This document shows, in pieces, positions 17,304-63,340 of a stretch of DNA of 64,000 bases; position 1 is the stretch's first letter; each line of letters begins with the position of its first letter. The translations under genes were made by a program, and so were the position numbers. The DNA comes from Fimbriimonadaceae bacterium (GTDB lineage: Bacteria; Armatimonadota; Fimbriimonadia; Fimbriimonadales; Fimbriimonadaceae), in contig JAHBTD010000002.1 in the NCBI GenBank assembly GCA_019638775.1, positions 558,001 through 622,000 of the forward strand, given 5' to 3'. The notes beneath the pieces are model-generated. The model made no database searches, was not told the DNA's origin, and saw nothing but the letters and a program-made list of their open reading frames with translations.

Positions 17304-18668
17304 GTGAACCGTAATCAGAAAAGGGAATCCAAAATCCAAAGTCGCAAATCCAAAATGCAACCCGAAATCCTCTATCCCCGCCGTAAAACCCGGACCGTGA
17401 AGGTCGGGGAGGTTTTCATGGGCGGCGGGCACCCGATCCTCGTGCAGTCCATGATCACCGAAGAGACCCGCAACGTCGATTCCTGCGTCGAGCAGATCAT
17501 CGGGTTGCACCAGGCAGGTTGTGAGCTGGTGCGCGTCACCACGCCGACCCTCGGCGAAGCGCAGTGTTTGGAGGAGATCAAGGCCAAGCTGAAGGAGCGG
17601 TACCGCGACGTACCCCTGACCGCCGACGTGCATCACCAGGGCTCGGCGATCGCGGTGGAAGCGGCGAAGTATGTGGAGGAGATCCGCGTCAATCCCGGCC
17701 TGTTCGTGTTCAAGCGGCACGGCACCCGCGCCCAGCAGACGGGCGCCGGGGAAGAGATCGACCTGCGGGGAAGTGGGGAAGACAAGACGGTCGATGAGCT
17801 CCGCAATGAGCTTGCCTACGACCCGAGTGAATGGGCGGAGGAGCTTGCGGCGGTCGAAGAGAGCTTTGTCCCGGTCATCGAGGCTTGCAAGAAGTACGGC
17901 CGTGCCATGCGCGTAGGCACCAACCACGGTTCGCTTTCCGAGCGGATGCTGGTGACTTATGGCGACACACCGGCAGGGATGGTGGAGAGCGCGATCGAAT
18001 ACTGCCGCATCTGCCGAAAGCACGGCTATGAGAACGTAAATATCAGCGTGAAGGCCAGCCGCGTGCAGATCATGGTCGCCGCAAACCGGCTGCTCGCCCA
18101 ACGCCTCGACGAAGAGGGAATGGACTACCCGATCCACCTGGGTGTGACCGAAGCCGGAGACGGCGAGTACGCCCGCATCAAGTCCACTGCGGGCATCGCG
18201 ACTCTCTTGATGGAGGGGATCGGCGACACCATCCGCGTTTCCCTTGCCGAAGACCCGATCCACGAAATTCCGGTTTGCTACGACATCCTGCAGTCGCTCG
18301 GCCTGCGCAAGACCAAAGTCGAATACATCGCCTGCCCCAGCTGCGGACGCACCAAATTCAACCTCCCGACCGTGCTGCATGAGGTCCGTGAAGCCACCAA
18401 GCACCTGGTCGGGCTGGACATCGCGGTGATGGGTTGTATCGTGAACGGTCCTGGCGAGATGGCGGATGCGGATTATGGCTACGTCGGCGCAGCGGGTGGC
18501 AAGATCACTCTGTACCGAAAGAAGCAGATCGTGAAGAACGGCATTCCGCAGGAAGACGGCGTTCACGAGCTGATCGAACTGCTGAAGGCAGATGGGATGT
18601 GGTCGGAACCACCCGAAGGCTCGGGCTCGGTCAAGCGGGAGCTGACCGGCCTGCGCGTTATTGAATGA
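17304..18668 (+). CDS. ispG: 4-hydroxy-3-methylbut-2-enyl-diphosphate synthase (flavodoxin)
   Basis: IspG/GcpE converts methylerythritol cyclodiphosphate to HMBPP in the non-mevalonate isoprenoid pathway. Clear blocks are [11 protein letters not shown] near the N-terminus, [34 protein letters not shown], and the 4Fe-4S site [13 protein letters not shown] with [20 protein letters not shown]. Start is uncertain: GTG 17304 has GGGGGAG about 11 bases upstream and gives 454 aa; ATG 17355 gives the family-like [12 protein letters not shown] but has no ribosome site, because a heptamer repeat abuts it. If GTG is used, the repeat encodes the first 17 residues. Confidence 0.95.
17327..17354. repeat. 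heptamer array (ATCCAAA)n before ispG ATG
   Basis: ATCCAAA occurs at 17327-17333, 17334-17340 and 17348-17354, with GTCGCAA between the second and third. The last unit ends at the base before ATG 17355. The same heptamer occurs inside leuS and after gdhA. Confidence 0.75.
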
Positions 18669-20819: not shown

Positions 20820-20893
20820 AGTAAGGGTTGTAAGGGGTAAGGATTGTAAGGAGAACAGGATGGAAATCGGGCGGGCGCTTTACAACCCTTACT
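20820..20893. repeat. inverted repeat with GTAAGG units
   Basis: AGTAAGGGTTGTAA (20820-20833) and TTACAACCCTTACT (20880-20893) are perfect 14-bp arms. More GTAAGG units lie inside. It sits between two convergent genes and resembles the element at 24727-24897. It lacks a T-run, so an ordinary terminator role is not clear. Confidence 0.6.
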
Positions 20894-24700: not shown

Positions 24701-24726
24701 AGCGCACCTCGTTTGGGGGATGTAAG

Positions 24727-24897
24727 GAGTAAGGATTGTAAAGATAGTAAGGCGTAAGGGATGGAAGGAGGCAAAGCCTGAAAAGGACCCGACGAAAAAG
24801 CAAAAAAGGCTGCAAGTTCGGAGGCCCCCAGAATCTGGGTTAGTGCCTCATTTCGGACTTGCAGCCTTACGATCCTTACCCCTTACAATCCTTACTC
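24727..24897. repeat. long inverted repeat enclosing the khpA terminator
   Basis: GAGTAAGGATTGTAA (24727-24741) and TTACAATCCTTACTC (24883-24897) are perfect 15-bp arms. GTAAGG-type heptamers flank the left arm. The arms match those at 20820-20893 closely, suggesting a dispersed family. The interior holds a strong terminator hairpin. Confidence 0.65.
24798..24868 (-). terminator. terminator of the ffh-rpsP-khpA operon
   Basis: AAGGCTGCAAGT (24806-24817) pairs perfectly with ACTTGCAGCCTT (24857-24868), with a smaller GAGGC/GCCTC stem inside. On the minus strand it is followed by TTTTTTGCTTTTT. This splits the cluster into two transcripts, so rimM needs its own promoter. Confidence 0.85.
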
Positions 24898-50292: not shown

Positions 50293-50330
50293 GTGGTTAG
50301 CAGGTTGTTATCAAGTGGTTATCAGGTGGT
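50293..50330. repeat. 11-bp tandem repeat upstream of leuS
   Basis: GTGGTTAGCAG, GTTGTTATCAA, GTGGTTATCAG and a partial GTGGT follow one another without gaps. The 209-base gap before leuS (50281-50489) also holds CGCCC-rich tracts around 50418-50462 and no gene. Confidence 0.65.
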
Positions 50331-50489: not shown

Positions 50490-53258
50490 ATGGCAGAACG
50501 CTACGAGCCGAAGACGTTTGAGGACAAGTGGAGACAGCGCTGGGCTGAGGCCGAGCTTTTCAAGACGCGCGAGGAGCCGGGGCATCCGAAATTCTACGCC
50601 CTCGACTTCTTCCCCTATCCCAGCGGCGCGGGCCTGAGCGTGGGGCACTGCCGCAACTACGTCCCGACCGACGTGCTCGCCCGCATGAAGTACATGCAGG
50701 GCTACAACGTTCTGCATCCGATGGGGTTCGACGCCTTCGGTCTGCCCGCCGAGAACGAGGCTATCGCCAAGAAGACGCACCCCGCGCCGATGGTGCAGGA
50801 GTACGGAGAGACCTACCATCGCCAGATGGACCTGATCGGCGTCTCCTACGACTGGTCGCGGTCGTTCTTCAGCTCCGACCCGGACTACTACAAGTGGACG
50901 CAGTGGATTTTCAAGCTGCTGTACGAGCGCGGGCTGGCTTACCAGAAGCTCGCGGCGGTGAACTGGTGCCCGAAAGACAAGACCGTCTTGGCGGATGAAG
51001 AGGTCGTTGGCGGTCTGTGCTGGCGCTGCAACACCCCCGTCGAGAAGCGATTGATCCCGCAGTGGTTCTTCAAGATCACCGAATATGCGCAGAGGCTGAT
51101 CGACGATCTGGACCTGGTGGAATGGCCCGACGGCATCAAGAACATGCAGCGCAACTGGATCGGAAGATCTGAGGGTGTTGAGTTTGCGATGCAGGTTTTC
51201 ACCCCCTCCTTGTCAACGCGAAGCGTTGATGGGGAGGGGGCAGGGGGTGGGGAATCTGTGAGCGATCAGCAATCGGCGATCAGCGATCAGCCGGCGGAAT
51301 CCAAAATCCAAAATCCAAAATCCGAGATTGAGCCCGATTTCCTCGCCGATTTCGAAGTTCGCCCCAAGGAACGCCAGCTCAACTTCCGCGTTTTCACCAC
51401 CCGCATCGACACGATCTTTGGCATGACCTTCTGCGTGCTCGCGCCCGAGCATCCGCTGGTCGAACAACTGATGAAGATGGTTGAGCCGGAGCACGTTGCC
51501 GCGATGCAGGAGTACCGCGAAAACGCCAAGCGGCTGAGCGACACCGACCGCCAAGCAACCAACCGCGAGAAGACCGGCGTGTTCACTGGAGCCTATGCAA
51601 TCAACCCCGCCAACGGGAAGAAGGTACCGATCTGGATTGCCGACTATGTGCTGGCGACCTACGGCACGGGCGCGATCATGGCAGTGCCTGGGCACGACGA
51701 GCGCGACTTTGAGTTCGCTCAAAAATTCGGGCTGGAAGTTAAGAAGGTCATCACGTTGGGGGACGACGATCCCGAACTCCCGTTCGAGTCCAAAGATGGA
51801 CGCATGACCAACTCGGGCGAGTACGACGGGCTGACATTCTCCGAAGGCACCGATCAACTCGGCGAATGGATCGAAGGCCTGGGCATCGGCGAACGCAAGG
51901 TCACCTACCGCCTCCGCGACTGGCTGATCTCGCGCCAACGATACTGGGGCTGCCCGATCCCAATGATCCACACAAAGGACGGCGAGATGCATCCAGCTTC
52001 TGACGATCAGCTTCCTGTGCTGCTCCCCGAGGTTGAGAACTACGAGCCCGCCGGAGACGGTTCTTCCCCGCTGTCGCAGATTCCCGAGTTTTTGAACGTC
52101 ACGGACAAGGACGGCACACTGGGTCGAAGGGAAACCGACACGATGGGCGGCTTTGCCTGTTCGTCGTGGTATTTCCTGCGATTCTGCGACCCGTTCAACG
52201 ATGAGAAGGCGTGGGATCTGAACAAAGCAAAGTATTGGATGCCGGTGGACTGCTACGTCGGCGGGGCCGAGCACGCGGTCATGCACCTGCTGTACGCGCG
52301 GTTCTGGACCAAGGTGCTGTACGACGCCGGGCTCGTGACGGTGAAGGAGCCGTTCCAGCGGCTGATGAACCAGGGGATGCTCCTCGCCAACACCCCTTAC
52401 CGGAAGCCAAAGGAGAACGAAAAGCTTGAGGTCGGGGAAGACGGAATCTTGATCACGAAGGCGGAGGCCGAAACCCTCGCAGAAGATCAGGTCTTCTACA
52501 AATGGGTGAAGATGTCGAAGTCGAAGGGGAACGTCATCACGCCGGAAGAGGCCGTCGATGTGCTTGGCGCGGATGCTATGCGCCTGTACCTGCTGTTCGT
52601 CGCCCCGTTTGAGCAGGAAGTGCTGTGGTCGGGCGACGACGCCCAAGGATGTGTACGGTTCCTTGGCAAGCTGTTCCGCTTTGCCCATGAAGTTCAGGCT
52701 TGGTACGATCCTAACTGGCGGATGTCTATGCCAAACACGCCGACGAATCCGTTGTGTGCAAAGATCCGGCGCGAAGTCCACAAGACGATCCATAAGGCCA
52801 CGCAGGACATTGAGAAGTTCGCGTTCAACACTTACGTCTCGTCGATGATGACCTGCCTGAATTCGCTCAACGAAGCTCTCAAGGAGGCGGGTGATACGCC
52901 GAGCGACGAGGCCAAGCTTTGCTTCAGCGAGGCTGTCGAGACAATGACACTGCTGCTTTCCCCGGCTGCACCTTTCTCCGCTGATGAACTTTGGGAGTCG
53001 CTCGGGAAGTCCGGCTTTACATATCACGCCGACTGGCCAAAATGGCGGGCCGAGCTTGCGGTGGAAGACACACTCAAGATCGCCGTGCAAGTGAATGGAA
53101 AACTTCGAGACACCATTGAGGTCGCCGCTGGATCAAGCAATGCGGTTCTCGAGGAACAGGCCAAAGCCTCGCCCAAAGTCCAGACTCACACCGATGGCAA
53201 GGAGATCAAGAAGGTCATCGTTGTCCCAGGCAAGCTGGTCAACATCGTCGCTGTGTGA
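50490..53258 (+). CDS. leuS: leucyl-tRNA synthetase with repeat-derived insert
   Basis: A complete 922-aa LeuRS charging tRNA-Leu. HIGH motif: FFPYPSGAGLSVGH near 41-54. Zinc region: CPKDKTVLADEEVVGGLCWRC. CP1 editing domain: NWIGRSEGVEF, TTRIDTIFGMTF and TYGTGAIMAVPGHDERDFEF. KMSKS: WVKMSKSKGNVI near 673. The anticodon-binding and C-terminal domains end in VIVVPGKLVNIV. Between NWIGRSEG and TTRIDT it carries about 45 extra residues (about 237-282), low in complexity, encoded by three repeat types in frame. Bacterial LeuRS is usually near 860 aa, and the extra length matches. Confidence 0.97.
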   Translation: MAERYEPKTFEDKWRQRWAEAELFKTREEPGHPKFYALDFFPYPSGAGLSVGHCRNYVPTDVLARMKYMQGYNVLHPMGFDAFGLPAENEAIAKKTHPAPMVQEYGETYHRQMDLIGVSYDWSRSFFSSDPDYYKWTQWIFKLLYERGLAYQKLAAVNWCPKDKTVLADEEVVGGLCWRCNTPVEKRLIPQWFFKITEYAQRLIDDLDLVEWPDGIKNMQRNWIGRSEGVEFAMQVFTPSLSTRSVDGEGAGGGESVSDQQSAISDQPAESKIQNPKSEIEPDFLADFEVRPKERQLNFRVFTTRIDTIFGMTFCVLAPEHPLVEQLMKMVEPEHVAAMQEYRENAKRLSDTDRQATNREKTGVFTGAYAINPANGKKVPIWIADYVLATYGTGAIMAVPGHDERDFEFAQKFGLEVKKVITLGDDDPELPFESKDGRMTNSGEYDGLTFSEGTDQLGEWIEGLGIGERKVTYRLRDWLISRQRYWGCPIPMIHTKDGEMHPASDDQLPVLLPEVENYEPAGDGSSPLSQIPEFLNVTDKDGTLGRRETDTMGGFACSSWYFLRFCDPFNDEKAWDLNKAKYWMPVDCYVGGAEHAVMHLLYARFWTKVLYDAGLVTVKEPFQRLMNQGMLLANTPYRKPKENEKLEVGEDGILITKAEAETLAEDQVFYKWVKMSKSKGNVITPEEAVDVLGADAMRLYLLFVAPFEQEVLWSGDDAQGCVRFLGKLFRFAHEVQAWYDPNWRMSMPNTPTNPLCAKIRREVHKTIHKATQDIEKFAFNTYVSSMMTCLNSLNEALKEAGDTPSDEAKLCFSEAVETMTLLLSPAAPFSADELWESLGKSGFTYHADWPKWRAELAVEDTLKIAVQVNGKLRDTIEVAAGSSNAVLEEQAKASPKVQTHTDGKEIKKVIVVPGKLVNIVAV
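51202..51252. repeat. GC-rich palindrome inside leuS
   Basis: CCCCCTCC-TTG-TCAACGC and GCGTTGA-TGG-GGAGGGGG form a near-perfect hairpin (51202-51240) followed by CAGGGGGTGGGG. The same motif, a CCCCCT...AGGGGG stem followed by CAGGGGGTGGGG, occurs in intergenic repeats at 59263 and 62916. Confidence 0.8.
51264..51291. repeat. heptamer array (GATCAGC)n inside leuS
   Basis: GATCAGC, AATCGGC, GATCAGC, GATCAGC in direct tandem. Being a 7-base repeat in coding sequence, each unit is read in a different frame. Confidence 0.8.
51299..51323. repeat. heptamer array (ATCCAAA)n inside leuS
   Basis: ATCCAAA three times and then ATCC. Identical heptamers occur before ispG and on both sides of the gap after gdhA. 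Confidence 0.8.
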
Positions 53259-59262: not shown

Positions 59263-59508
59263 CCCCCTGCGAAGCGAGGTGGCTCCACCGAGCAGCACGA
59301 GGAAGGAAAGGGGGCAGGGGGTGGGGGTTCCAACCCAAGCTAGTGGCACACCGTGCGCAACCCCCATCCCTCAGCTCACTGCGTTCGCAGGTCCCTTCCC
59401 CCTAAATGCAGGGGGAAGGGATTGCTGCCGCGACTTCCTGAACACACTGGAGGGACACTGTCCTCAGTGTCCAAAAGCTCTTGGTCATCGAGGACGATGA
59501 CCCTCCAG
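59263..59508. repeat. composite palindromic repeat, copy 1
   Basis: The 334-base gap 59193-59526 is filled by repeats and no gene. Order: a CTCCCCCTGCGAAGCGAGG palindrome with an extra segment, CAGGGGGTGGGGGTTCC, TCCCTTCCCCC/GGGGGAAGGG, then the 62-bp element 59447-59508 with outer arms CTGGAGGG/CCCTCCAG and two inner 8-bp hairpins (GGACACTG/CAGTGTCC and GGTCATCG/CGATGACC). About 230 bases match 62916-63140. Confidence 0.8.
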
Positions 59509-59526
59509 CCTGGGCAGGGGAAGGGG

Positions 59527-61470: not shown

Positions 61471-61600
61471 TTAGATTTTGGATTTTGGATAAAGGTTGTT
61501 TGGGAGTGGTATGGAATGTCTGTCATGCTTGGCTGAACACTCTACACCGGAAAGCCCGAATGCGGATACATTCCAAAATCTAAAATCCAAAATCCAAAAT
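61471..61600. repeat. opposed heptamer arrays after gdhA
   Basis: ATTTTGGATTTTGGAT (61475-61490) and ATCCAAAATCCAAAAT (61585-61600) are inverted copies of the (ATCCAAA)n heptamer, with GGAATGT/ACATTCC also inverted between them. The right array runs into the gdhA stop codon (TGA at 61602-61600). The pair could form a long hairpin at the end of the gdhA transcript. Confidence 0.75.
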
Positions 61601-62844
61601 CACTTGACCCATCCCCTGATCCTGCAGGCCTCAGCCACGCGCTCGACAGCCACAAGGTAGGCGGCAAGACGTGTGTGGACATTCTTAGCCTGTCGCATGG
61701 AGTAGACGGCGCCGAAGGCATCGGTCATGATCTCATCCAACCTTTCGTGAACATAGCTGATCTTCCAGCGATCAAGCGAGGCGTTTTGAACCTGTTCAAA
61801 GTAGCTGACCGTCACACCGCCAGCATTGCAGAGAAAGTCGGGGATAACAAAAACGCCATTACTGTGTAGGATGTCATCGGCTTCCGGGGTTGTGGGCCCG
61901 TTAGCAAGCTCCGCAATGATCTTCGCCTTGAAATCGCCCGCATTGTCGGCCGTGATCGCGTTTTCTAGTGCGGCAGGGATGAGGACTTCGACATCCAGTT
62001 CTAACAACTCCTCATTCGTGATCGTTTTGCTCCCCTTGAACCCAACGACAGAGCCCGTCTTCGACTTGTGTTCCATAACATCCTTTAGTCGAAGACCACT
62101 CGCGCTGAAAATGCCTCCCCTTGAATCGCTCACTGCAACGACCGTAGAACCGAACATCGAAGTCACTAATTCGTGCGCGTGCATACCCGCGTTCCCATAT
62201 CCTTGGATTGCGACCTTGGCGGTTGATAGATCAACTCCTACAGCCTTTGCGGCTTCTCGGAGCGTATACATCCCTCCCCGCGCCGTAGCGTCTCCTCGAC
62301 CTGGAGAACCGCCGAGCTCAAGAGGCTTGCCAGTGATGATTCCAGGCGCATGATGTCCGTTCATCTTCTCGTACTCGTCCATCATCCACGCCATGATCTG
62401 CGGGGTTGTGTAAACGTCGGGCGCAGGCACGTCCACGACCGGGCCGATCTTGTGTCCGACCGCACGCATGTATCCCCGGCTCAGCCGCTCAAGCTCCCCT
62501 TCCGAAAGCTCCTTGGGGTTGCAGATCACGCCGCCCTTGCCCCCGCCGAGGGGAATGTCGACGACCGCCGTCTTCCAGGTCATCCACGCCGACAGCGCAC
62601 GGACGGTATCCACCGTCTCTTCCGGGTGGAAGCGGATGCCGCCTTTGCACGGGCCACGCGCATCGTTGTACTGCACGCGAAAACCCTTGAAAACTCGGGT
62701 GGAGCCGTCGTCCATACGCACGGGAATCTGCACATGAAGCTCCATCATTGGCTCGCGCAGGAGTTGGTGGACGTTTGGGGGAAGATTGAGGAGTTCTGCT
62801 GCTTGGTCTAGCTGCGCTTGGGCGATGGCAAACGGGTTTTGCAT
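61600..62844 (-). CDS. gdhA: Glu/Leu/Phe/Val dehydrogenase
   Basis: A 414-aa amino-acid dehydrogenase, most like hexameric NAD(P) glutamate dehydrogenases. Substrate site: [39 protein letters not shown] with the catalytic lysine region; [22 protein letters not shown]; Rossmann domain [52 protein letters not shown]. It links ammonium and 2-oxoglutarate metabolism. It is monocistronic, with a repeat region on each side. Confidence 0.94.
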
Positions 62845-62915: not shown

Positions 62916-63140
62916 CCCTTCCCCCTGCGAAGCGAGGGGGAAGGGGCAGGGGGTGGGGGTTCCGGCCTAAGCTCGCGGCACATCGTGCGCAACCCCCATC
63001 CCTCAGTTCACTTCGTTCGCAGGTCCCTTCCCCCTAAACGCAGGGGGAAGGGATGACTGCCGCGACATCTTGAACGTGCAGGAGGGACACTGTCCTCAGT
63101 GTCCAAAGGCTCTCGGTCATCGAGGACGATGACCCTCCAG
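62916..63140. repeat. composite palindromic repeat, copy 2
   Basis: Same module order as 59263-59508: CCCTTCCCCCT-GCGAAGCG-AGGGGGAAGGG, CAGGGGGTGGGGGTTCC, GCACATCGTGCGC, TCCCTTCCCCCT-AAACGC-AGGGGGAAGGGA (12-bp perfect), and the two-hairpin element at 63081-63140. The gap 62845-63397 holds no gene. Further palindromes fill 63178-63295 (CCCTCCCC-AGT-GGGGAGGG; CCTCTCCCT-CA-AGGGAGAGG). Confidence 0.8.
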
Positions 63141-63340
63141 CCTAGTCCAGAGGATGCAGCGACCCAATCCTTCCCTCCCCAGTGGGGAGGGACCAGTGAG
63201 CGAAGCGAACTGAGGGCGGGGTTATAGGCTTTCGGCACCCTCCCCGCACGCGGGATCTTCGACACCCCGTTCTCTTCGTTCACGGCCTCTCCCTCAAGGG
63301 AGAGGAATCTGCAGGCGCAGACCGTCTGCTTGCCATTGCG

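Follow-up and report, generated by a model that had tools for sequence, protein, structure and literature searches.

Hairpin and heptamer repeats carried in frame within an editing-domain loop of leucyl-tRNA synthetase in a Fimbriimonadaceae bacterium, with other repeat fillings of the same loop in related lineages

The window analysed here is a stretch of 64,000 nucleotides from contig C2 (positions 558001-622000) of the genome G000, a draft of 4.3 Mb in 126 contigs that is 99.9% complete and whose relatives are named Fimbriimonadaceae or Armatimonadetes. It contains leuS, in which three repeat types lie in order between the motifs IGRSEG and TTRIDT: a palindrome and its G-rich tail, then two heptamer arrays, an imperfect one of GATCAGC and a perfect one of AATCCAA. 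The features, in window coordinates, are as follows.

50490..53258, + strand: leuS, leucyl-tRNA synthetase (LeuRS), 922 aa; single uninterrupted ORF; PF13603/PF00133/PF08264; PDB 1h3n, E=1e-227
51202..51240, + strand: palindrome, 18-bp stem and 3-nt loop, encoding TPSLSTRSVDGEG; from folding and a family of copies
51241..51252, + strand: G-rich 3' tail CAGGGGGTGGGG of the palindrome family, encoding AGGGE; from family copies
51216..51368, + strand: predicted disordered loop of low confidence, LeuRS residues 243-293; AlphaFold pLDDT < 50
51261..51291, + strand: imperfect heptamer array GATCAGC/AATCGGC, encoding SDQQSAISDQ; TRF
51298..51323, + strand: perfect heptamer array AATCCAA x3.7, encoding ESKIQNPKS; TRF
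62917..62958, + strand: intergenic relative of the palindrome and tail; sequence match in the window
59302-59326: palindrome tail, intergenic; sequence match in the window
61572..61601, + strand: AATCCAA array, intergenic; TRF
61474-61490: AATCCAA array, intergenic; window
17326-17360: AATCCAA array, listed as an intergenic relative; window

The synthetase, editing and anticodon domains of the leuS product are all present by domain matches, and the repeats keep the frame open through one 922-residue ORF, as the preliminary description had it. Its palindrome at 51202-51252 was confirmed as an 18-bp stem with a G-rich tail. The hairpin (51202-51240) folds at -33.8 kcal/mol (z = -5.3), beating all 200 shuffles, and its end together with the tail (51231-51252) forms a strong G-quadruplex motif, one of only two in the window. 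The first array (TRF 51261-51291; period 7, 4.4 copies, 83% matches) exists as described but is not pure, because its units read GATCAGC-AATCGGC-GATCAGC-GATCAGC. The second (51298-51323; period 7, 3.7 copies, 100% matches) is perfect, with no match in the reversed control. The low-complexity stretch is indeed encoded by repeats, and its size is corrected from about 45 residues to about 41 (238-278). An undecamer array, GTGGTTATCAG, lies at 50293-50330, about 160 bp upstream of leuS.

The claim that the palindrome and the AATCCAA array have intergenic relatives in the window held for 62917-62958 and 59302-59326, and for 17326-17360, 61474-61490 and 61572-61601, respectively. The array region 17304-17360 runs into the N-terminus called for an IspG-like gene; the start codon is probably miscalled, or else the protein has an N-terminal extension. 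No further GATCAGC array was found within the 64-kb window; GATCAGC relatives occur elsewhere in the genome. The intervals 59302-59511 and 62934-63143 are direct repeats of 210 bp, 89% identical, each with a palindrome tail and a further inverted repeat. Another dispersed family, the 16-mer GTAAGGATTGTAAGGG, has direct and inverted copies at 20820-20851, 24717-24769 and 24865-24896.

All three leuS repeat types are dispersed in G000, mostly between genes. The AATCCAA pattern AATCCAAAATCCAAAATCC has 40 genome matches, representing 22 arrays (reversed control 0), the GATCAGC pattern GATCAGCGATCAGCGATC has 340 at up to three mismatches (reversed control 0), and the palindrome tail GGGGCAGGGGGTGGGG has 55 at up to two mismatches (reversed control 9). 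Most of thirty tail loci are built alike, with CCCCCTCC or a close variant, an inner stem that varies around GCGAAGC or the like, then GGAGGGGG, two bases and GGGGGTGGGG. A strict pattern finds 73 hairpins in the genome (control 6), which confirms a dispersed palindromic family. On C2, 20 palindromes are intergenic and 12 fall within gene calls; some of the latter are false hits, as the genic detector takes in a few of these and overlooks the leuS copy. Dispersed tandem heptanucleotides of the kind that define heptamer satellites are likewise present. A census of 12-mers occurring in at least four spacers was made on C2 (1.16 Mb, 27% of the genome). These 12-mers account for 2.7% of spacer sequence, against 0.14% in the control, and for 0.15% of gene sequence, against 0.05%; they form 13 internal genic blocks within ten called genes (control 0). 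The leuS block, with 74 nt covered, is among the largest; in three of the ten genes the N-terminal start is probably miscalled. In-gene arrays at such probable miscalls (C2 genes at 624270, 702120, 817609 and 950235) were not counted. The search for copies in coding sequence that was proposed earlier finds the repeats mainly intergenic, and also in frame in other core genes.

Comparison with relatives indicates that the leuS segment is an insertion. From WIGRSEG to TTRIDT there are 86 residues in the G000 LeuRS and 43-55 in most of 76 Fimbriimonadaceae LeuRS sequences, and the equivalent turn in the Thermus enzyme (1h3n) has four (235-238). Aligned with the LeuRS of G068, the extra residues are the repeat peptides. 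In the AlphaFold model (36 sequences, mean pLDDT 83) only residues 243-293 fall under pLDDT 50. The insert lies in this segment, which connects strand 226-237 with strand 298-303 at the beginning of the editing domain; the site is thus predicted to be a disordered beta-hairpin loop. The G000 LeuRS retains the residues that are invariant across the family, and no second LeuRS-length match appears in G000 among the matches listed, so that to judge from sequence the enzyme very probably works with its insert. These results agree with the earlier suggestion of tolerance at an editing-domain loop. In 16 other Fimbriimonadaceae a helix-like, mostly repeat-free loop of 89-132 residues occupies the same site; these are dispersed over the tree (loci include L033, L034, L161, L165, L168, L169 and L173).

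Besides LeuRS, about ten other core enzymes appear to have absorbed repeats in loops. On C2, in-frame stacks occur in the genes for MiaB, TrmFO, CarB, HisH, an acyl-CoA dehydrogenase, a GlcD-like oxidase, an OGG-type glycosylase and an MmgE/PrpD protein; on C1, in-frame repeats occur in ArgRS (three places), MetRS and a rhamnosidase-like protein. Several have clean empty sites, which extends the case for insertion beyond leuS. The MiaB linker has 176 residues in G000, 34 in nine relatives and 126, made of other repeats, in G063; a TrmFO loop has 165 residues in G000 and 36 in three relatives. In the LeuRS, MiaB and TrmFO comparisons, conserved genes hold in-frame palindromes at sites that are empty in orthologues. 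Two of the three ArgRS sites are length-neutral relative to relatives, which indicates that replacement of loop sequence happens as well as insertion. Residues 230-375 of the same ArgRS (L246:7387-9912) are unmatched in relatives and are not built of leuS-type repeats. Five of the genes with repeats encode tRNA enzymes (LeuRS, ArgRS, MetRS, MiaB and TrmFO), and a preference for such enzymes is a lead only.

The peptides encoded by the repeats show a bias in orientation. A heptamer array yields one and the same heptapeptide whichever frame is read, since 7 is not divisible by 3, and this would suit such arrays to in-frame survival. The AATCCAA array is open on both strands, reading SKIQNPK or, reversed, LDFGFWI. 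All seven scored internal genic arrays (LeuRS, MiaB, TrmFO twice, GlcD-like, HisH and ArgRS) read the hydrophilic SKIQNPK, an outcome with a probability of 1/128 if orientation were random. Palindromes read forward encode peptides rich in G and E in the same frame (GEGAGGGE, EEGVGGGD, GEGVGGGV, EGAGGGD). Two or three of seven genic palindromes lie near heptamer arrays where 0.07-0.17 would be expected (P at most 0.006, on small numbers), and none of 15 does so in spacers. Clustering in genes and not in spacers fits stacking at rare permissive sites and disfavours a single composite element made of the three repeat types.

Within the comparison set of 85 family genomes the same loop has been filled in other lineages. 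G063, whose LeuRS is the best match to that of G000 (69% identical), carries there a palindrome of the same family, with an inner stem that differs yet keeps its pairing; after it comes a 9-mer array, TCNGACNNG, which occurs 52 times in 382 kb of G063 (control 1) and three times on C2 of G000. Relatives with the same residues and no DNA repeats would have told against insertion; G063, with similar residues, has the DNA palindrome too. The LeuRS of G052 has about five in-frame palindromes, two in this loop, which coincide with insertions by comparison with G053 of the same genus. These palindromes (L176, G052:C1:1819100-1822100; L282-L283) form a G052-specific subfamily, and four of nine strict palindromes in a 400-kb sample of this genome lie in its LeuRS gene. 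Hairpin counts are 79 in G063 (control 4), 1 and 0 in its genus mates G061 and G062, 119 in G052 (control 39) and 11 in G053; no palindrome occurs at the LeuRS loop in G061, G062 or G053. In G007 the loop holds GGGCGTT-type heptamers, and the MiaB site and ArgRS loops of G063 are filled with that genome's own, different repeats. Shared sites with differing fillings point to permissive loops that were filled independently. The earlier statement that the protein had absorbed one element is right as to absorption, and its extent is wider, with several elements, genes and lineages. The genus of G000 is represented in the set by G000 alone, so insertion polymorphism between strains cannot be seen.

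The resemblance between G000 and G063 might instead reflect a palindrome in their common ancestor that was lost in other lineages. This would account for the same site, orientation and frame and for the similar ends (APSL..RSE..EGVGGG and TPSL..RSV..EGAGGG), and it is kept as a rival since the LeuRS tree is weak around G000, whose position is poorly resolved. However, in the tree built without the loop G063 groups with G061 and G062 (support 95) and not with G000, and both of these genomes lack the insert and, genome-wide, the palindrome family. The inner stems differ while pairing is preserved, a neutral 50-bp hairpin would hardly survive at a LeuRS identity of only 69%, and G052 independently repeats the pattern, which together make common descent improbable. 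That the insert is functional, with an mRNA hairpin or G-quadruplex in leuS, or the peptide, tuning LeuRS, would fit the strong hairpin and quadruplex motif, the recurrence at LeuRS in three lineages and the several tRNA enzymes affected (those named above). However, most relatives do without it, sequence and element type vary by lineage, unrelated enzymes are also affected and the loop is predicted to be disordered; we consider a function for the insert more doubtful still. An assembly or chimera artefact might be raised because the genome is a draft in 126 contigs, but the segment lies inside a 1.16-Mb contig with its frame kept, and the same phenomenon appears in several independently assembled genomes, of which G052 is a single contig. 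This explanation is scarcely credible.

The dispersal of the repeats and their lineage-specific amplification are clear. The earlier suggestion that the elements move is borne out only to this extent; non-autonomous movement of the hairpin is plausible. No transposase was linked to the repeats among the Y1_Tnp genes, part of which were examined. G000 has two weak Y1_Tnp matches, and the one gene examined has no strict palindrome nearer than about 5 kb; among six examined in G063 the nearest palindrome is 2.5 kb away. Mobilisation by a RAYT is not supported, as Y1_Tnp counts in the 85 genomes do not track palindrome counts (22 and 1 in G012, 2 and 90 in G004) and the examined genes are unflanked by palindromes. 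By comparison with MITEs, the hairpin is itself an inverted repeat, and no partner transposase was found among the Y1_Tnp genes examined.

The arrays, and perhaps the hairpin too, could alternatively have been born in place by replication slippage in a freely varying loop, with no dispersal and with like units reflecting polymerase bias. Heptamers are the commonest tandem period on C2 (106 of 401 TRF arrays) and are over-represented in bacteria (PMC4692102), slippage being an idea cited in PMC4679880. The same loop is filled with different units in different species, and the AATCCAA unit also occurs in distant families. The exact array is abundant in G100 (39 matches) and G211 (11), which belong to other families of the phylum, and is missing from nearly every other genome sampled. 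Against slippage, one unit is common to 29 of the 106 heptamer arrays, a long AATCCAA array occurs in just 3 of the 85 family genomes, and a 50-bp hairpin family with a common tail is not expected from it. Slippage explains the growth of arrays, but not the dominance of one unit at many loci, and as a full account it is unlikely.

The best reading, in which we have good confidence, is that permissive loops have repeatedly and independently taken up, in frame, repeats specific to each genome. The leuS segment would then consist of a REP-like hairpin, its G-rich tail and two heptamer arrays, absorbed in frame into a permissive beta-hairpin loop. From the observations above we infer an order of events, neutrality of the inserts and a mode of copying. 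Repeats would amplify lineage by lineage and land widely; within genes they would persist only at permissive sites, in copies that leave the frame intact and encode a hydrophilic, flexible peptide; and a loop, once permissive, would let more repeats pile up. Hairpins may be copied by non-autonomous transposition, and arrays by slippage or template switching plus dispersal. More speculatively, and with little confidence, an active process might write arrays of fixed unit and G-rich hairpins into genomes in patchy blooms. Blooms of AATCCAA are seen in three families (G000, G100 and G211), and because period-7 arrays read alike in all frames, they might be a recurrent source of disordered loops in essential enzymes, the same loops being hit again and enzymes of tRNA charging and modification preferred.

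The literature found contains no such description for Armatimonadota, most subscription papers lying outside the search. Among the closest known systems are the Rickettsia palindromic elements (RPEs) and their Wolbachia relatives, in-frame palindromes in protein genes (Ogata 2000, 2002, 2005, reviewed in PMC2229807), where an RPE-bearing guanylate kinase is still active (PMC2229807). As with RPEs, the palindromes described here are dispersed, also intergenic, in frame in many conserved proteins and tolerated. However, RPEs as published are 105-146 bp long (PMC2229807) and belong to intracellular parasites, whereas G000, with a larger genome and from another phylum, has GC-rich hairpins of about 50 bp with a G-rich tail, accompanied by tandem heptamers. 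Intragenic GTAG and CGTC REPs are short hairpins within genes of several bacteria; two Xanthomonas share one at nearly the same position of recB, tRNA-modifying enzymes carry others, and CGTC REPs are reported without a dedicated transposase (PMC3733652). Those of G000 differ in that no consistent GTAG or CGTC tag was seen by eye at the hairpin foot (copies show CCCCCTCC..GGAGGGGG plus CAGGGGGTGGGG), no RAYT neighbour was found among the genes examined and heptamer arrays are stacked alongside. Bacterial heptamers are known from Calothrix, as GGGAATC in Xanthomonas and as TAACTGA in Beggiatoaceae (PMC4692102, PMC4679880); these too are tandem 7-mers, dispersed mostly between genes and patchy by taxon. 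Genic TAACTGA repeats are reported mainly near protein ends, whereas the G000 arrays are internal to core enzymes and adjoin hairpins. Borg tandem repeats (PMC9879509) likewise turn DNA repeats into disordered protein segments, but there the amino-acid repeats are perfect and the proteins, encoded on extrachromosomal elements, are often extracellular or membrane-bound, whereas those of G000 are short dispersed families in chromosomal enzymes. Rickettsia-type protein-coding repeats are usually presented as a peculiarity of intracellular parasites. What is new here is another phylum, hairpins with heptamers, core tRNA enzymes and the repeated parallel filling of the same loops. Independent lineages with different repeats in the same loops of the same essential enzymes, and with empty sites in relatives, amount to a replicated natural experiment, in which the neutrality of inserts, the identity of the permissive loops and the spread of both hairpins and heptamers become testable.
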